From Allokutzneria sp. A3M-2-11 16 (GTDB lineage Bacteria; Actinomycetota; Actinomycetes; Mycobacteriales; Pseudonocardiaceae): a DNA stretch of 64,000 nucleotides. The DNA lies in the NCBI RefSeq assembly GCF_024213555.1, contig NZ_JANAVO010000001.1, forward strand, positions 3,472,001 to 3,536,000, given 5' to 3'. Shown one piece after another: positions 5,854 to 15,319 of this stretch; positions within the stretch are counted from its first letter, which is position 1, and the number at the start of each line of letters is the position of its first letter. The translations under genes and the position numbers were made by a program. The notes below the pieces were generated by a model that saw only the letters and a list, made by a program, of their open reading frames with translations, ran no database searches and was not told where the DNA came from.

Positions 5854-6114
5854 TCAGATCTTGTTGGCGCGCAGGGCCATCGCCGACTTCTTGTTGGCGG
5901 CCTGGTTCGCGTGGATGACGCCCTTGCTGGCGGCCTTGTCCAGCTTCTTGCTGGCCTCGGCGAGCAGCGCGGCGGCCTTGTCCTTGTCCCCGGCCTCGGC
6001 GGCCTCGCGGAACTTGCGGATGGCCGTCTTGAGGGCCGACTTCACGGACTTGTTCCGCAGGCGCGCCTTCTCGTTGGTCTTGATGCGCTTGACCTGCGAC
6101 TTGATGTTGGCCAT
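5854..6114 (-). CDS. rpsT: 30S ribosomal protein S20
   Basis: An 86-residue basic protein beginning [18 protein letters not shown] and ending in the family C-terminus [14 protein letters not shown]. Its length and the Lys/Arg/Ala-rich helical composition are standard for S20, which binds 16S rRNA early in small-subunit assembly. Upstream in-frame sequence exists, but the ATG at 6114 is the conserved start. It stands alone between its own terminator and its promoter region. Confidence 0.97.
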
Positions 6115-6259
6115 GGCTGGACCCTCATATTCGTTCGAGTGGGGTGTGCACCGCGCTTGATCGGCACTCGCCTGAACTCCGGCGAGTCTTCCTCCACGAC
6201 GGAACGCCGCGCGGCACGACGCCGGTGATGGTAACAACCGGGCGCCGTGCCACCCAAAA

Positions 6260-6276
6260 CGGCCCGGAGCGGGCCG
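6260..6276 (-). terminator. Short GC hairpin after GH3 gene
   Basis: A 6-bp stem, CGGCCC / GGGCCG, with a 5-base loop lies directly behind the stop codon of the glycosidase gene. It is short and has no T-run, so termination is only probable. Confidence 0.45.
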
Positions 6277-6278
6277 GG

Positions 6279-8534
6279 TCAGCGCACCGTGAACGGGGCC
6301 CGCTTGTCCTCCACGACCACCTCGTAGCCGGTTCTCGGTACTTCCCTGCGGCCGGCACCGTCGACGTCACCGCTGGTCAGGGCGAGCTGTTCGACTGAGA
6401 ACTCCACCTCGACCGCCTGCTGGGCTCCTGCCGCGAGCTCCACGCGCGCCCAGCCGACCAGCCGCTTGTCGGGAACCTGGAGCGGCGCGACCGGCTGGTG
6501 CACGTAGACCGGGACGACCGCGGTGCCCGTCCGCGAGCCGGTGTTGCGCACGGTGAAGCCGACCTTGACCTTGGCGTCCGCCCGGACGGAGCTGGGCACG
6601 CTCGGTGCTCCGACCGTGAAGCTCGTGTACGACAGGCCGTGGCCGAACGCGAAGGCCGGGTCGTACTTGGAGCTCTCACCGCCGTTCGTGCCCGGCAGCT
6701 GGTCGTAGGACATCGGCTGGTCACCGATGCGCTTCGGCCAGGACACCGGGAGCTTGCCGCTCGGGTTGGCAGTGCCGAACAACACATCCGCGACCGCCGT
6801 GCCGCCTTCGGTGCCGGGCAGCCACCCCGCGAGCAGCGCTTCGGCGTCCGCGACGGAACCGAGCACCTGCGGCCGTCCGGTGAGCAGCACGACAACTACG
6901 GGCTTCCCCGTCGCGCGCACGGCGTCCACCAGGCTCTGCTGCGCTGGGGTGAGCGCGGGTTCCTCCGTGTCGGCGGGCCCCTCCGCTCCGGGTTTCTCGC
7001 CGAGCACCACGACGACCGCCTTGGCGTCCTTGGCCTGCGCGACCGCGTCGGCCTGGTTGGGCGCGTGGGCGACGGTGGCTCCCGGCGCCGCCGCGCGGAT
7101 GCCCTCCAGCACGGTGACCGCCTCCGGGACCGGCCCCTGCTCGGGGACGCCCTGCCAGTCGACGGTCCAGCCGCCGAGCTGCCGCCGCACGTCGTCCGCC
7201 GTGTCGCCGGTGACCACGATCTTGCCGTCCTTGGCCAGCGGCAGCGTGGACTTCTCGTTGCGCAGCAACACCATCGACTCGGTCGCGGCCTTGCGGGCGA
7301 GGTCGAGGCCGACGCCGTTGACGCGCTCGTTGGCCACGGCGGGGTCGACGTAGGGCCGCTCGAAGAGGCCGAGCTCGAACTTCAGCCGCAGGATGCGCCG
7401 GACCGCCTCGTCGACGCGGCGTTCACTGACCCGGCCGTCGCGAACGACCTGGCGCAGCCCGGCGGTGAACTCCCCGGCGGCGGAAGGCTCCATCGCCATG
7501 TCCACACCCGCGTTCACCGCCATCGCGATCGCCGCCGGGTAGTCGGCCGCGGCCTTGTGCTTGGTCACCAGCGACCGGATGTCCTGCCAGTCGGTGATCG
7601 CGACACCGGTGAAGCCGAGCCGGTGTCGCAACTGCTCGGTGAGCATGTACTTCGACGCGTGCACCGGGACGCCGTTGATCGACCCAGAGTTGATCATGAC
7701 GGTCTTCACGCCCGCGCGGAACTGCGCGGTGAACGGCGGCAGCACCTGGTCCTGGAGCGTGCGCACCGGGAGGAAGGCCGCGGCGCGGTCGTGGCCGCCC
7801 TTGGGCTCGGAGTACCCGGCGAAGTGCTTCGCGGTCGCGGTGAGCCGCGCGGTCTTGCCGTCATCGGCCTGCATGCCGCGAACCGCCGACGCGGCAAGGG
7901 TTCCTGCCAGGTGCGGGTCCTCGCTGTAGGTCTCGTAGTAGCGCCCCCACCGGGTGTCCCTGGCGATGTCGGAGACCGGGGCGAAGTTCCAGAACACGCC
8001 GGTCGCGCGCATCGCCTGCCCGGTCGCGGCGCCCGCCCGCTCGATCAGCTCCGGGTCCCAGGTGGCGCCGAGGCCGATCTGGTGCGGGAACATCGTCGCG
8101 GTCACGACGTTGCTGTGCCCGTGCACGCCGTCCGCGCCGTAGAGCACGGGGATCTTGAGCCTGCTGTTGTCCAGCGCGTACTTCTGGATGGCGTTGGTCA
8201 TCTCCGCCCACGCCTTGGGGCTGGGGTCCGGGGCGGGGACGTCGCCGCCGCCGGACAGGATCGAGCCGACTTTCGCGTCGACGAGCACCGGCTTCATGCA
8301 GTCCTCGCGCAGCGGCCCCGGGACCGCGTCGCAGTCGCCCCTCAGCTTGCCGACCCGGATCTGGGTCATCTGGCCGATCTTCTCCTCCAGCGTCATCCGG
8401 CCGAGCAACGCGTGCACCCGCGCTTCGAGCGGGAGCCCGGCGTTGAGGTGGTCCGCGGGTTGCGCCGCGGTGGTGAGCGGGAGGGTGAGCGCGGCCGTGA
8501 CGGCCAACGCGGTTGTTCTTCGAGCGGTGAGCAC
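6279..8534 (-). CDS. Secreted glycoside hydrolase family 3 beta-glucosidase-type enzyme
   Basis: A 751-residue enzyme with a signal peptide (first ~25 residues). The GH3 N-terminal barrel starts at [13 protein letters not shown] and includes [23 protein letters not shown] and the nucleophile region [10 protein letters not shown]. The GH3 C-terminal domain ([27 protein letters not shown]) and a fibronectin III-like tail follow. GH3 enzymes release terminal glucose or xylose from oligosaccharides; the exact substrate cannot be read from sequence. The GTG at 8534 was chosen because GGAGGAG lies 4 bases upstream; a TTG at 8546 is the alternative. A LacI-type half-palindrome upstream suggests sugar control. 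Confidence 0.92.
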
Positions 8535-8621
8535 GTGCTCCTCCAACGAGAGGGTGTGCGGCAGCAGCCCCTTAACGTTCGACGGTGAGGTTGGTCACCA
8601 ATAGCTGCGTTCGGAGCAATG

Positions 8622-8635
8622 TGGGAGCGCTTTCC
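8622..8635. promoter_or_regulatory. CebR-like operator upstream of GH3 gene
   Basis: TGGGAGCGCTTTCC matches 11 of 14 positions of the Streptomyces CebR operator TGGGAGCGCTCCCA. It lies about 90 bases before the GH3 start and 50 before the divergent transporter. A second palindrome, TTGGTCACCAA, is at 8591-8601. No regulator gene is adjacent. Confidence 0.45.
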
Positions 8636-8684
8636 TGCTGGTAAGCGTTGTTTTGTTGCAGGGGTGCGTGCCTAACGTCCGTCC

Positions 8685-9491
8685 GTGTTCACAACCCTGG
8701 ACCTGCCCGGCTTCGCCGGGGTCTCGATCGCCGCGCTGGTGTTCCTCTGCGTCGCCGCCTTCCTCGCCGGAGCCATCGACGCGATCGTCGGGGGCGGCGG
8801 CCTCGTCCAGCTGCCCGCGATGCTGTTGGTGATGCCGGGTGGCGCCCCGCTCTACTCGCTGGCCACCAGCAAGCTGTCCTCGTTCGTCGGCACCGCCGCC
8901 GCGGTCGGCACCTACGTCCGGCGCACGAAGATCGACTGGCGGAGCACGGCGCCCACGGCCGTCCTCGCGTTCGGCGGTTCCGTTGGGGGAGCGGCGTTCG
9001 CGGACATGCTGCCGCCGGGCGCGCTGAACGTGGTCGTCCTGTGCGCGCTGGTCGTCGTCGGCGTCTACACCTGGCGCAAGCCGGAGTTCGGGGCCGAGGA
9101 CGCGGAGCGGTTCTCGCGCGCCCGGCAGCTGATGGTGATGCTGGCCGGGGGAGTGGTGATCGGCTTCTGGGACGGCCTCGCCGGTCCGGGCACCGGCTCG
9201 TTCCTGGTGTTCCTGTTGGTGGGCCTGGTGGGCTTCGCGTTCGTGCGCGCGTCGGCGACGGCGAAGGTGATCAACACCGCCACCAACCTCGGCGGGCTGT
9301 GCTACTTCGTGCCCGCCGGGCAGGTGCTGTGGGGGCTCGGCCTGGCGATGGCGCTGTGCAACCTCACGGGGTCCGTCCTCGGCGCGCGGATGGCCGTGCG
9401 CCGGGGATCGGAGTTCGTCCGCAAGGTGTTCCTGACCGTTGTCGCCGCCCTCGTGCTCAGCCTGGGGTGGAAGGTCGCGCTGGGAACGTGA
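8685..9491 (+). CDS. TSUP (TauE/SafE) family sulfite/anion exporter
   Basis: A 268-residue integral membrane protein with about eight hydrophobic segments and two related halves. The halves show the TSUP signatures GAIDAIVGGGGLVQLPAML and GFWDGLAGPGTGSFLVF. The family moves sulfite, sulfonates or other small organic anions; the substrate here is not determinable. The start is a GTG at 8685. It is divergent from the GH3 gene and its stop abuts that of the convergent lipase gene with no spacer. Confidence 0.9.
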   Translation: MFTTLDLPGFAGVSIAALVFLCVAAFLAGAIDAIVGGGGLVQLPAMLLVMPGGAPLYSLATSKLSSFVGTAAAVGTYVRRTKIDWRSTAPTAVLAFGGSVGGAAFADMLPPGALNVVVLCALVVVGVYTWRKPEFGAEDAERFSRARQLMVMLAGGVVIGFWDGLAGPGTGSFLVFLLVGLVGFAFVRASATAKVINTATNLGGLCYFVPAGQVLWGLGLAMALCNLTGSVLGARMAVRRGSEFVRKVFLTVVAALVLSLGWKVALGT

Positions 9492-10259
9492 TCAGCACGG
9501 CGGGCGGTAGCCGGGATCGGCGACGCCGCCGCGCTGCAACGCGTTGACCACCCACTTCACCGCGGGCCGCGAGTGCGGGATCAGCAGGTGCTCGGTGAGG
9601 TGCAGCGGGCAGGCGTCCTGCAGCACGACGTTGGTCACGCGGTCGGCCGAGCCGGACAGCGCCTGGCCGCGGTAGGGCGTCACCACCGCCTCGTACCGGG
9701 TGGCGATGGTCGTGTACTTCACCGAGCCCGCGAGGTCGCCGCCGTCGTTGAGCGCCCGCAGGAACGCCGACCCGGCCGACTGGTCGTCGCAGGCCGGGCA
9801 GAACGTCACGCCGAGCAGCTTCGCCAGCGGCTGGGTGGTGCCGTGGTTGGAGGGCGCGATGCCGACCACCGAGTTCACCTTCGCCGCGCCGCCGAGGAAC
9901 TTCAGGTAGTGCCGGGGCATCATGCCGCCCTGGCTGTACCCCACGATGTCCACTTTGGACGCTCCGGTTGCCGAGAGCACTTGGTCGACATAGGTCGCCA
10001 GCTCGCGCGCGGACTGGGCGATCGGGTTCAGCCCGGCGTTGCCGTAGTCGAGCGCGTAGTGGCACCAACCGCCCCGGCTCAGCTCGGGAGCGAGCACGTC
10101 CCAGGTGTTCCCGGACTTCTTGAAGGTTCCGTGCAGCAGGATCACCGGCCGTTTGCCCGATTGGCACGCGGCAGGCGCGGCGGTCGCGGTGGTGGCGGCG
10201 GCGATCGTGACGGCGGTGGCGAGCAGAGCGGCGCAGAGCAGGGCGCGCAGCAGTCGCAT
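9492..10259 (-). CDS. Secreted lipase/esterase, alpha/beta-hydrolase (lipase class 2 type)
   Basis: A 255-residue protein with a signal peptide (residues 1 to ~30, ending AAPAACQ). The mature part has the oxyanion region VILLHGTFKKSGNTW, the nucleophile elbow VDIVGYSQGG, and a late histidine in LTEHLLIPHSRP. Cysteines near both ends suggest disulfides. Similar actinobacterial enzymes are extracellular triacylglycerol lipases. The ATG at 10259 has GGGGAG upstream, better than the earlier in-frame start at 10325. It is convergent with the TSUP gene. A scrap of related sequence lies just upstream at 10380-10435. Confidence 0.9.
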   Translation of the reverse strand: MRLLRALLCAALLATAVTIAAATTATAAPAACQSGKRPVILLHGTFKKSGNTWDVLAPELSRGGWCHYALDYGNAGLNPIAQSARELATYVDQVLSATGASKVDIVGYSQGGMMPRHYLKFLGGAAKVNSVVGIAPSNHGTTQPLAKLLGVTFCPACDDQSAGSAFLRALNDGGDLAGSVKYTTIATRYEAVVTPYRGQALSGSADRVTNVVLQDACPLHLTEHLLIPHSRPAVKWVVNALQRGGVADPGYRPPC

Positions 10260-10379
10260 AGTCGTCTCCCCGTTGAGACCAGCGGCGGTGAACTGGCGAG
10301 TAACCCAGAATGTAAGGCGGGTCACATTCGCCTGTCACTCCACTGAACGGCCTCAGCAGGCGCGTTGACGCGGGGCCGC

Positions 10380-10435
10380 TCAGCGCTTGATGAGCCAGTC
10401 CGGGAGGGAACCCGTGTACCCCACGATGTCCACTT
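10380..10435 (-). pseudogene. Remnant of a lipase-like gene 3' end
   Basis: The minus strand reads VDIVGYTGSLPDWLIKR then stop. Its first six residues equal the nucleophile-elbow strand of the adjacent lipase, and 21 bases (about 10415-10435) are identical to 9938-9958 inside that gene. There is no start or active-site serine. It looks like the leftover of a recombination between lipase copies that fused the elbow to a foreign tail. It could also be coincidence plus gene conversion. Confidence 0.4.
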
Positions 10436-10476
10436 CCCTGAGGTCGGGCGCGGAACTTGCTGCCCGACCTCAGGGA
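10435..10476. terminator. Terminator after the SPFH/RHH operon
   Basis: A perfect 15-bp stem, TCCCTGAGGTCGGGC / GCCCGACCTCAGGGA, with a 12-base loop lies 8 bases past the stop of the ribbon-helix-helix gene. Confidence 0.8.
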
Positions 10477-10483
10477 GGCACAA

Positions 10484-10693
10484 CTAAGGAGAATCCTTCG
10501 CGTCTTTCGGCGGGCGGCCCCGGCGGGCGGGTTTCGCCGCGTTGCCGGGCATCCGCCCCGCCTCCGTCAGAGCTCGCCGGAGCAGGAACTCGATCTGCGC
10601 GTTGGCGCTGCGCAGCTCGTCGTTCGCCCACTTTGTGAGTGCGTCGTGCACCGCGGGGTCCAGGCGGAGCAGGACGCTCTTGCGTTCCGCCAC
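10484..10693 (-). CDS. Small Arc/ribbon-helix-helix DNA-binding protein
   Basis: A 69-residue protein with the RHH pattern KSVLLRLDPAVHDALTKWANDELRSANAQIEFLLRRAL, followed by a basic tail containing an AT-hook-like GRPPK. Dimeric RHH proteins bind short palindromes through an antiparallel beta-strand. The GTG start at 10693 lies 9 bases after the SPFH gene stop, so the two are one operon. RHH genes paired with SPFH genes recur in actinobacteria. Autoregulation through the palindrome ahead of the operon is an inference. Confidence 0.8.
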   Translation of the reverse strand: MAERKSVLLRLDPAVHDALTKWANDELRSANAQIEFLLRRALTEAGRMPGNAAKPARRGRPPKDAKDSP

Positions 10694-10702
10694 GACTACT
10701 TC

Positions 10703-11629
10703 CTAGTGGTAGAGCGACCCGGTGTTGACGACGGGTTGGGTCGATCGGTCGCCGCAGAGCACGACGAGCAGGTTGCTGACCATGGCCGCCTTCCGCTCCT
10801 CGTCCAGGTCGACGACATCGCGCTCGGCGAGCCGGTCCAGCGCCATCTCGACCATCCCGACCGCGCCCTCCACGATGCGCTGGCGCGCGGCGACCATGGC
10901 GCTCGCCTGCTGCCGCTGGAGCATCGAGTGCGCGATCTCCGGCGCGTAGGCGAGGTGGGTGATCCGGGACTCGATCACGTTCACGCCCGCGGAGGTGACG
11001 CGCGCGGCGACCTCGGCGGAGAGCCGCTCGGTGATCTCGTCGGCGTTCTCCCGCAGCGACAGCCCGGTCTCGCCGTGGTTGTCGTAGGGGTAGCTGGTGG
11101 CGATGTGCCGCACCGCGGTCTCGGTCTGCACCTGCACGAAGTCGACGAAGTTGTCCACCTCGAACATGGCCTGCGCGGTGTCGTTGACCTGCCACACCAC
11201 CACCGCGGCGATCTCCACCGGGTTGCCGTCGGCGTCGTTGACCTTCAGCGCCGTGGTCTCGTGGTTGCGAATCCTCGTGGACACCGGGGTCTTCGTGGCG
11301 ATCGGGTTCACCCACTGGAAGCCGTCGGAGCGGATCGTCCCGGTGTAGCGGCCGAGCACCTGGAGCACGCGGGCCTGGCCGGGGGCGACCATGACCAGCC
11401 CGGCGAACAGGACGGAGCCGACGATCGTGCAGCCGATGCCGGTGAAGAGGAACGCGGACGTGTGCGTCTTGGCGGAGAGCACGATCTGCAGCACGCCCGC
11501 GGCCAGCAGGACGAAGCCGAGCAGGAACATCGGCACGCCGGGCAGCCGGTTCCCGTCGTGCTCACCGATCTTCGGTGTCGGCCGGGTCGCGGCGATCTCG
11601 GACGGCGTGTGGACGAGTTGGTCGGACAT
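10703..11629 (-). CDS. SPFH/Band 7 (stomatin-type) membrane protein
   Basis: A 308-residue protein. Two closely spaced transmembrane segments (about residues 33-80) precede the SPFH domain, visible in [23 protein letters not shown] and [19 protein letters not shown], followed by the helical [17 protein letters not shown] region. Such proteins form membrane microdomain rings and chaperone membrane complexes. The ATG at 11629 has GGGAGG upstream. It is the first gene of a two-gene operon with the RHH protein. Partners are unknown. Confidence 0.88.
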
Positions 11630-11654
11630 GGCGGCCTCCCCAGTGGTGCCTAGC

Positions 11655-11671
11655 AAACTGATATCAGATTT
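11655..11671. promoter_or_regulatory. Palindromic operator candidate ahead of the SPFH operon
   Basis: AAACTGATATCAGATTT contains the perfect 10-bp palindrome CTGATATCAG in an AT-rich patch that stands out from the surrounding GC-rich sequence. It is 26-42 bases before the SPFH start and could be the site of the operon's own RHH repressor. Confidence 0.45.
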
Positions 11672-11714
11672 ATAGCAGGTGTCCGCGCGCTCCGCCAGGG
11701 GATAGGTTGGCGGT

Positions 11715-11848
11715 GGTCAGTGCCTAGGGTTCCGCCCCTCGCCCGCCATCACCCGACAACCAGGGCGTGGGGGACTGGTCCGAGCGGCACCGTCGGCCGC
11801 CCCTGCGCGGTCGTTCATCTGACGGGGGAAAAGCCTGGAGGAACCGCG
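11715..11848 (+). promoter_or_regulatory. Guanidine-I (ykkC-type) riboswitch ahead of EamA transporter
   Basis: The leader carries the ykkC core: GTGCC (11720-11724), then TAGGGTTCCG, and GACTGGTCCGAGC followed by GGCAC (11786-11790), which pairs with GTGCC. A nested stem pairs CCCCTCGCCC (11735-11744) with GGGCGTGGGG (11763-11772) with one mismatch. The 3' domain pairs CGTC (11791) with GACG (11821) and continues ACGGGGGAAAAGCCTGG. ACTGGTCC and the ACGG box fit subtype 1 (guanidine) better than the ppGpp/PRPP subtypes. A hairpin CACGCC/GGCGTG (11851-11869) lies between the aptamer and the ribosome binding site and may be part of the expression platform. Confidence 0.8.
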
Positions 11849-11886
11849 ATCACGCCTGCCCTGGGCGTGGTCTGGAGGGAATCCCG

Positions 11887-12732
11887 GTGAGCCTCACCGC
11901 ACTGCTGCTCATCCTCGCCGCCGCCTTCGCCCACGCCGGGTGGAACCTCGCCGCCAAGAGCGCCGGGGCGGGCGGCCCCGCCTTCGTCTGGCTGTACTCG
12001 GCCGTCACCGCCACGATCTACCTGCCGTTCGCCGCCGCGATCGCCTTCGGCGGGCCGCCGCTCGGCTTCACGGCGGTGCTCGGGATGGGGCTCAGCGCTC
12101 TGCTGCACACCGGCTATTTCCTGTTGCTGCAACACGGTTATTCGATCGGCGACATGTCCGTGGTCTATCCGCTCGCGCGCGGAACGGGGCCGATGTTGTC
12201 GGTGCTGGCCGCTGTACTGCTCTTCGGAGAGCGGCCCGGTCTGCTCGGTCTGCTCGGTGCGGGAACGGTCGTCGTCGGTGTGCTCGTGATCGGAGGTGGT
12301 GGCCGAGCCGGTGGTTCCGCGGTGCTCTTCGCGCTGCTGACCGGCGTGATGATCGCCGCGTACACGCTGTGGGACGCCTACGCGGTGAAGGAGCTCGGCG
12401 TGCCGCCCCTGGTGCTCAACTGGGGGAGCGCGGTGGGTGAGGTGCTGATGCTCTCGCCGTACGCGGCCACCCACCGCTCACAGGTGCGGCTGTCGTGGCG
12501 GCTGCACCGGCGCGCGGTGTTGGCGGTCGCGGTGCTCTCACCGCTGGCTTACATCCTGGTCCTGATCGCGGTGCAGACCACTCCGGTGAGCCTGATCGCG
12601 CCCGCCCGCGAGCTGAGCATCGTCATCGGCGGTATCGCGGCGTGGAAGTTGTTCGGCGAGAAGGACCCGGTGCGCAGGATCGGCGGCTCCGTCGTCGTGC
12701 TCGCCGGAGTCGCCATGCTTGCGTCCGCTTAG
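11887..12732 (+). CDS. EamA-family (DMT superfamily) transporter, candidate guanidine exporter
   Basis: A 281-residue protein with ten predicted membrane helices in two EamA repeats (for example LLLILAAAFAHAGWNLAAKS and the second-half IAAYTLWDAYAVKELG), ending in the helix [14 protein letters not shown]. The GTG at 11887 has GGAGGG seven bases upstream, directly after the riboswitch. EamA proteins share a superfamily with the small multidrug resistance proteins, some of which export guanidinium. Given the leader, guanidine export is the most economical guess, but substrate is unproven. Its stop overlaps the stop of the convergent methyltransferase gene by 4 bases. Confidence 0.88.
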   Translation: MSLTALLLILAAAFAHAGWNLAAKSAGAGGPAFVWLYSAVTATIYLPFAAAIAFGGPPLGFTAVLGMGLSALLHTGYFLLLQHGYSIGDMSVVYPLARGTGPMLSVLAAVLLFGERPGLLGLLGAGTVVVGVLVIGGGGRAGGSAVLFALLTGVMIAAYTLWDAYAVKELGVPPLVLNWGSAVGEVLMLSPYAATHRSQVRLSWRLHRRAVLAVAVLSPLAYILVLIAVQTTPVSLIAPARELSIVIGGIAAWKLFGEKDPVRRIGGSVVVLAGVAMLASA

Positions 12733-13328
12733 CGTTTGCGGGCCAGGAGTTCGAAGCGTGGCGCGGAGAACAACCGCAGCGACCCGAGTCGCATGATCAC
12801 TTCGGTGAAGCCGGCGTCGCGTGCGAGCAGCCGCAGATCCAGCGGTTTGCAGCGCAAGCGCGATCGCCGCACGGACAGCAGCAGGGTGCCTCCGGGCCGG
12901 AGCACGCGGTGCAGCTCGGTGAACCCCGCCGCGACGTCCGGCCAGAGGTGCACCGTGTCCACGGAGATCGCCACGTCGACCGAGCCGTCGCCGAGCCCGG
13001 TCCGCTCCGCCGTGCCGGGCCGCAGCCTGACCTGGCCGGTGCCGACCAGCCCCGAGCAGCGCGCCGCGCAGGATCGCAGCGCGTCCGGCGACGGGTCCAC
13101 GGCGATGGCGACGCCCTTCGGCACGAGCGCGCCCGCCGCTCGCACGCCGGTCCCGGTGCCCGCGCCCAGCACGAGCACCGCGTCACCCGGGCCGAGGCGC
13201 GCGTGCTCGACCAGGCGCCGCTCCGCCCGCGCGGACCCGGCCGCGAACAGGCCGGTCAGGGGACTCGCCGGGGAAATGACCACGCCGTTCATGGAGTCCA
13301 GCCAAGCGCGGGGCGACTGAGACCACAT
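12729..13328 (-). CDS. Class I SAM-dependent methyltransferase
   Basis: About 199 residues. Motif I is [12 protein letters not shown], an acidic residue follows in [10 protein letters not shown], and motif IV is [16 protein letters not shown] with the post-motif [16 protein letters not shown]. These are those of methyltransferase-11-type enzymes. The substrate is unknown. Start choice is weak: ATG at 13328 or 13292, neither with a good ribosome binding site, so the transcript may be leaderless. It shares a 4-base TTAG overlap with the convergent EamA gene and is divergent from lepA. Confidence 0.85.
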
Positions 13329-13474
13329 CAGGGTTGCCCCGGACGTGTGCCGGGCATTGTCACCGACATGGGAACATGGGGTGTCACCCATATCCAGCGA
13401 GGACACCGAGTGAAGCGAACGAACTACCAGAGCGCAGCCGCCTTGACGACCGCCGAGCACTGCGAGGTCGCCGC

Positions 13475-15319
<1,845 letters not shown>

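Follow-up and report, generated by a model that had tools for sequence, protein, structure and literature searches.

The leader upstream of an EamA exporter gene in the window (the whole 64,000-nucleotide stretch of DNA analyzed) is best read, at a probability of roughly 0.8, as a ykkC riboswitch of the EamA/TauE-linked subtype 2 (called 2d) and not as a guanidine-I riboswitch, and would act as a translational ON switch for EamA-mediated export. The features on which the argument depends are as follows.

11703–11708, forward strand: −10-like box TAGGTT, 17 nt before P1
11713–11843, forward strand: ykkC-family aptamer, subtype 2 (2d by gene association)
11720–11724, forward strand: P1, 5′ strand, pairs with 11786–11790 (100% paired over its 5 pairs, double-sided changes at 2 of them)
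11724–11734, forward strand: core CTAGGGTTCCG, end of P1 plus P1a 5′ strand, invariant in the 34 alignment rows
11756–11764, forward strand: conserved P1b terminal-loop motif ACAACCAGG (MCAAYNRRG in 30 of 35 loci)
11785, forward strand: diagnostic base C (A in guanidine-I RNAs, where it contacts guanidinium)
11786–11790, forward strand: P1, 3′ strand, pairs with 11720–11724
11794–11813, forward strand: P2 hairpin (double-sided changes in each of its 7 pairs; 86% of cells paired)
11816 and 11838, forward strand: C and G at the positions of the long-range pair in guanidine-I and PRPP aptamers, placed by the RF00442 alignment (C in 34 of 34, G in 34 of 34)
11818–11820, forward strand: lower P3 helix, 5′ strand, pairs with 11840–11842
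11824–11836, forward strand: P3 hairpin with AAAAG in the loop (3 pairs, 99% paired)
11840–11842, forward strand: lower P3 helix, 3′ strand; in relatives the same end can pair with the ribosome-binding site (RBS) strand
11848–11872, forward strand: 10-bp hairpin directly before the RBS, the putative expression platform in the window species
11874–11879, forward strand: Shine-Dalgarno (SD) sequence GGAGGG, kept in a same-genus genome that lacks the aptamer
11887–12732, forward strand: EamA exporter gene, GTG start, 281 residues

An Rfam scan of positions 9000–15000 gave a single riboswitch match, that to RF00442 at 11713–11843 of the forward strand, which spanned the full model length (44.4 bits, E 1.1e-5; E 3.7e-6 in the genome-wide search) and lies below the Rfam gathering cutoff of 63 bits. 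Matches to AsrC (within the lepA open reading frame) and mir-140 scored far under their cutoffs and were discarded as chance. The genome-wide search, in which 150 of the 221 first-look candidates were scored, found no second RF00442 match at E≤0.001 in the window's own genome. With a Pfam EamA match (E 6.8e-20) for the downstream gene, the proposal of the initial annotation that a ykkC-family riboswitch precedes an EamA-type exporter gene was borne out. The Rfam search that it proposed as a check gave the family and left the subtypes together, as Rfam does not separate them: RF00442 was the label given to all nine ykkC loci scanned, which lie ahead of guaA, purine, ilv, TauE or EamA genes (the purine and ilv genes being named by inspection), and hence Rfam cannot decide the subtype. 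An RF00442 match by itself must not be counted as proof of guanidine sensing. At locus L116 (positions 1–177) a guanine aptamer (RF00167, truncated by the end of the locus) adjoins a ykkC RNA ahead of purine genes; Rfam calls this ykkC RNA Guanidine-I at 65.6 bits, over the cutoff, and the arrangement resembles a PRPP tandem.

In the cited passage of PMC6031431 guanidine-I is told apart from ykkC subtype 2 by an adenine, and that of PMC11661666 surrounds guanidinium with A34 and G33 (the AG bulge), G63, G64 and the Hoogsteen edge of G81; in our reading, the marker adenine of the first paper and the AG-bulge residue of the second are the same base. This position (11785) is C in all 35 RNAs of the window group, window included, versus A in 29 and G in one of the 30 canonical guanidine-I RNAs from the same bacterial family. 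The six RNAs of the guaA-linked type described below also have C (6 of 6). Profiles built here scored the window aptamer at 92.8 bits with its own group (the window being left out), 21.8 bits with the canonical set and 17.3 bits with the guaA type. The guanidine-I label given earlier is not supported by the marker base or by these scores; a better score to another ykkC subtype, which the initial annotation had itself named as evidence against that label, was obtained with our profiles, a question that Rfam cannot decide. The ACGG at 11822–11825 had been misread as the guanidine-I 3′ box: canonical RNAs have CACGG directly after P2, whereas the window has CA followed by UCUGA, and its ACGG sits further 3′ and runs into P3.

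The leader is most likely a ykkC subtype 2 RNA, namely orphan subtype 2d. Subtype 2d is described in the cited passages of two Breaker-laboratory papers (PMC5912903 and PMC7266159) as an orphan located upstream of EamA (phn_DUF6) and TauE genes, with a consensus nearest to that of guanidine-I. The window shares with it a ykkC scaffold without the guanidine marker base, a phn_DUF6-like EamA gene and, in relatives, TauE/SafE genes. We use the 2d label because of the marker base and the gene association, the published consensus being known by description. No difference from 2d was found in a comparison made by description, so that the lower P3 helix, the P1b loop and the alternative helix discussed below may be included in it. 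As EamA and TauE are the published 2d targets, EamA is a familiar ykkC target and not the less familiar one it had been taken for. According to the cited part of PMC9788692, one ykkC variant class still had no known ligand as of 2022, and the titles and abstracts among the literature matches listed name no 2d ligand, although a subscription-only report could escape such a search.

The aptamer structure was assessed in a 34-row MAFFT alignment (A1) of the window and 33 of its 34 fetched group relatives, L052 being omitted as near-identical to L051. Double-sided changes were seen in 20 of the 32 consensus pairs. The 32 pairs were 93.8% paired and gave a covariation score of 0.399 versus 0.148 for shuffled columns (0 of 500 column shuffles as high), a type of score that kinship among the sequences can inflate. 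The lower P3 helix, an extra helix that lies near the pocket together with the 2-nt insert it draws on (counted against the RF00442 consensus), was paired in 34 of 34 RNAs. Its outer pair occurs as four types (U-A in 20, C-G in eight, G-C in five and A-U in one), the next as C-G in 30 and A-U in four, and the third as U-G in all 34. For the two P3 helices taken jointly, 0 of 500 shuffles reached the covariation score, and 4 of 500 and 18 of 500 reached two other measures. The P1b loop region conserved here is length-variable in the printed RF00442 alignment. Both the covarying lower P3 helix and the conserved P1b loop go beyond the cited 2d passages and may be present in the published consensus. 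Pairing of the aptamer ends into a P0 helix was unsupported in the group (z 1.3, a value reached in 19 of 200 shuffles) and in a wider test against mismatched controls (295 of 500 as high); the P0 test covered the group, and the window alone has a 5-bp GCGGU/ACCGC flank match.

Association with the exporter was examined across the window's bacterial family, in which 104 of 297 genomes gave an RF00442 match at E≤0.01 (31 over the cutoff). The 30 best loci (L002–L031) were taken as the canonical guanidine-I set. Genes were assigned by inspection for 13 of these, and 12 of the 13 oriented loci lie ahead of genes for a GdmH-like agmatinase-family protein or an APC-type permease, six each. Outside the 30 best were 87 matches, a few of them canonical-like at 58–64 bits. 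An EamA gene (E≤1e-30) lay within 700 nt downstream on the same strand in 53 of the 87, and the RNA-to-EamA distance was 38–56 nt in 52 of these and 376 nt in one. The other 34 comprised guaA-, TauE- and canonical-like types, more distant EamA genes and further matches. Forty of the 87 were fetched, of which 34 belong to the window's group and six lie ahead of guaA. Among the 35 group loci (34 plus the window), the genes of 30 fall in one EamA cluster, two (L055, L067) were identified as EamA by search, two precede TauE genes (L069 by Pfam; L050, which clusters with L069) and L038 is unclassified. TauE also follows L092 (Pfam) and L104 and L115 (BLAST). Six genomes carry a canonical guanidine-I RNA together with a second match ahead of an exporter gene (EamA in G108, G125, G141, G157 and G233, TauE in G225; the second RNA was fetched in four, leaving out G108 and G233), as expected if the two RNAs have different ligands.

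The guaA-linked subtype 2 RNAs (L043, L049, L058, L060, L065 and L071 in the window's family, L099 in Nakamurella lactea) form a separate observation. The six from the family share the core GGUUCGAGC and by eye have P0-capable flanks; guaA (GMP synthase) was called by Pfam GMP_synt_C for L043, by clustering for the other five and by inspection for L099. The PRPP class is reported from Firmicutes, and guaA is unmentioned in the main texts of PMC5912903 and PMC7266159. The guaA-linked RNAs are possibly a further purine-linked class.

Beyond the family, profile R1 matched 18 of 396 genomes of the phylum at E≤1e-4, own genome included, and the adenine of guanidine-I is present in at least eight of the remaining 17. 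Scanning the genome collection with a pattern returned 42 loci of several subtypes. RNAs of the window type lie ahead of EamA or TauE genes in Kribbella, Nocardia, Saccharopolyspora, Pseudonocardia, Actinopolymorpha, Nonomuraea and Streptomyces. The equivalent of 11821 is C or T in five of six TauE-linked RNAs (L050, L069, L092, L104 and L115) and G in the sixth (L074, its TauE named by inspection); it is G in the other 32 rows of A1 and T in the EamA-linked L079. Proteobacterial EamA-linked RNAs (L090, L095, L102, L118, L120, L121, L122 and L131, from Paracoccus, Brenneria, Methylorubrum and others) resemble the window group in the marker C and the EamA-type gene downstream. They differ in having CGAC/GUCG P0-capable flanks (8 of 8), whereas the Actinobacterial RNAs are P0-less, and in a P3 insert one base shorter. 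Their genes were identified by BLAST for L090, L095, L102 (phn_DUF6, 122.8 bits) and L120 and by inspection for the rest. The two sets may have been pooled as 2d in publications. A third exporter-linked variant (L077, L078, L080, L105 and L109) precedes a different, RhtA-like EamA protein, called for L077 from TIGR00950 (94.8 bits, under cutoff) and Pfam EamA and for the others by inspection; in L077 a VOC-type gene (Glyoxalase_3) follows EamA.

The GTG start of the window EamA gene was picked from the SD sequence and the starts of homologues. The gene association of 2d was found although the match to TIGR03340 (phn_DUF6), at 113.8 bits, does not reach that model's curated cutoff of 288.15; a search of PDB sequences gave no match at E≤0.1. 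EamA and Gdx proteins both belong to the DMT superfamily. Likewise, phn_DUF6 is placed in this superfamily in the cited passage of PMC5912903. As for neighboring genes, 13 of the 40 family loci that were fetched have a VOC/glyoxalase-type gene (family name taken from the L098 homologue) after EamA; it is absent in the window and was the only recurrent partner recognized in those 40 loci as a clue to the ligand. By eye, no phosphonate genes were recognized beside the Proteobacterial loci. The frequent gene order in relatives, by inspection, is rpsT, RNA, EamA, VOC-type gene and lepA; in the window (5854–15319) extra genes separate rpsT from the RNA, and a minus-strand methyltransferase-like gene stands where relatives have the VOC gene. 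A TauE/SafE gene (8685–9491, Pfam E 1.8e-44), whose family is the second published target of 2d, is found 2.2 kb upstream of the RNA on the same strand, and a similar-looking TauE gene precedes the RNA in L044, L051, L052 and L098. A perfect 15-bp inverted repeat with a 12-nt spacer (10435–10476), between two minus-strand genes, is perhaps a terminator or operon-boundary hairpin.

A −10-like box abuts the aptamer: TANNNT starting at −19 to −16 from P1 occurs in 28 of 35 loci versus 0.08 expected from background, and a sigma-70 consensus scan of 11650–12000 returned no promoter. Given this placement, the transcript should start about at the aptamer, and this would leave little room for P0. No terminator-like site was found in 11650–12000; transcription termination was therefore rejected as the control mode, and translational control is likely. 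In relatives the 3′ end of the aptamer (for example GGAACCC) can pair with the RBS strand (GGGUUCC), and this alternative helix covaries, its sequences differing by genus (GUAGCC/GGCUAC, GGACCC/GGGUCC, GCCUUCC/GGAAGGC, GGGCCU/AGGCCC). Its score was 15.8 versus 12.6 (sd 0.6) for mismatched pairs in 20 RNAs from 18 genera, window included (0 of 1000 as high), and 16.6 versus 12.8 (sd 0.4) in 35 RNAs (0 of 300 as high). As it mostly begins 1–3 bases past the equivalent of G11838 and overlaps the lower P3 strand, the helix and the aptamer should compete.

The window itself lacks the alternative helix, its best match (11.0) being under the mismatched mean. The hairpin ahead of the RBS that had been proposed as the expression platform is present (11848–11857 paired with 11863–11872) and folds little better than shuffles (z −0.83). 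With this hairpin of its own and no alternative helix, the platform of the window is only putative. Taken whole, the leader shows no folding advantage over shuffles (z 0.83). ViennaRNA tests of SD release showed no effect: the mean unpaired fraction of the SD was 0.44 without and 0.43 with the aptamer forced (higher in 7 and lower in 10 of 34, p 0.52), and a test of 3′ segments gave a change from 0.38 to 0.44 (higher in 13 of 35, p 0.22). The minimum-energy fold of the window leader, which beats the forced aptamer by 5.7 kcal/mol, pairs GGGUUCC of the core (11727–11733) with GGAAUCC (11878–11884) beside the SD. This pairing was rejected as the switch, because SD exposure does not rise with the forced aptamer and instead falls from 0.37 to 0.29.

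The mechanism that we propose for the 2d leader is that a small, probably toxic metabolite other than guanidinium would bind near the guanidinium site of guanidine-I RNAs, in a pocket that differs at P3 and, through the A-to-C change, at the AG bulge. Once bound, the metabolite would stabilize P3 and the lower helix and so may raise EamA translation, and EamA would export the ligand or a related compound. The ON direction is presumed by analogy with other ykkC classes, and the folding energies do not confirm it.

A more specific version, which we consider rather unlikely, is that the Actinobacterial RNAs linked to EamA or TauE, the window included, with no P0, a lower P3 helix and a conserved P1b loop, would be a class of their own sensing a small toxic anion via a metal held by the marker C. 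The candidates would be phosphonate-, sulfonate- or carboxylate-like compounds, the metal-holding C having replaced the adenine that contacts guanidine. We know of no riboswitch for a small anion of these kinds. The suggestion comes from the annotation of TauE as a sulfite exporter (Pfam), the VOC/glyoxalase gene in 13 of 40 loci and the PRPP aptamer, in which the marker C coordinates a metal that holds a phosphate (cited passage of PMC6031431).

Some relatives have the exporter gene without the RNA. The EamA protein of G034, a genome of the same genus (locus L133), is 94% identical to that of the window, and no profile R1 match at E≤1 was found around its gene. The TAGGTT box and the SD GGAGGGAATCCCGGTG are retained in the G034 leader, as is a degenerate version of the aptamer's first part, and its promoter-to-SD distance is 54 nt versus the 176 nt of the window, a net shortening by 122 nt. 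In G034 the aptamer and platform have naturally been lost almost entirely, with EamA left intact. Searching the other genome of the genus, G068, gave only an EamA homologue of 40% identity. Among 107 family genomes with an EamA match, 54 have no RF00442 match before EamA; 40 of these upstream regions were tested, and 37 lacked an R1 match at E≤0.01 (one of them with an 8.7-bit match, E 0.31), whereas three had one. Hence the exporter exists both with and without the RNA. That the window aptamer is likewise a relic, its platform decayed in the genus as one congener already lost the RNA, would accommodate the missing alternative helix as well as the G034 and RNA-free leaders. We nevertheless hold it to be quite improbable: the aptamer keeps its invariant bases and helices (125.4 bits with a model that includes the window itself), and the promoter-like box and the 10-bp hairpin before the RBS are present.

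Still less probable is a divergent guanidine-I riboswitch with EamA exporting guanidinium. The window shares with guanidine-I RNAs the P1/P1a core CTAGGGTTCCG, P2, P3 with its AAAAG loop, the long-range C-G pair and a link to a DMT-superfamily exporter such as Gdx; RF00442 is its sole credible Rfam match, and it carries G at both 11837, which our alignment assigns as the G81 equivalent, and 11821. Nevertheless, the published marker base is C here, and this Hoogsteen-position base varies in the group (26 G, four C, two A and two T in 34 RNAs). The group also has the 2-nt insert with an extra lower P3 helix, the conserved P1b loop and other target genes. The score is below the Rfam cutoff and favors the group profile over the canonical one, RF00442 also takes RNAs before purine genes (one over cutoff), and six genomes hold a separate canonical guanidine-I RNA. 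Equally improbable is a ppGpp, PRPP or NDP aptamer (2a, 2b or 2c) with an exporter as its chance target: the marker pyrimidine is shared with 2a and 2b (PMC6031431 and PMC5912903, in the passages cited), but the long-range G that 2a lacks (PMC5912903, same passages) is present in 34 of 34 group RNAs, P0, seen in the PRPP structure, is unsupported in the group, and the genes are exporters (EamA in the window) and not amino-acid or purine genes or the NUDIX or HAD hydrolase genes of 2c.

The leader is a real riboswitch candidate that was mislabeled guanidine-I and most likely belongs to orphan ykkC subtype 2d, a known kind. As described in the cited parts of papers from 2018, 2020 and 2022, the ykkC scaffold already reads guanidine, ppGpp, PRPP and NDPs, and 2d is its orphan branch. 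To this our comparison of leaders contributes an abutting −10-like box, a predicted alternative helix with the RBS strand in relatives and a congener in which the RNA is almost entirely gone. Also gained are a clean 2d-type case whose gene is intact, a description of the structure and, in G034, a same-genus genome without the aptamer that is usable as a genetic control.
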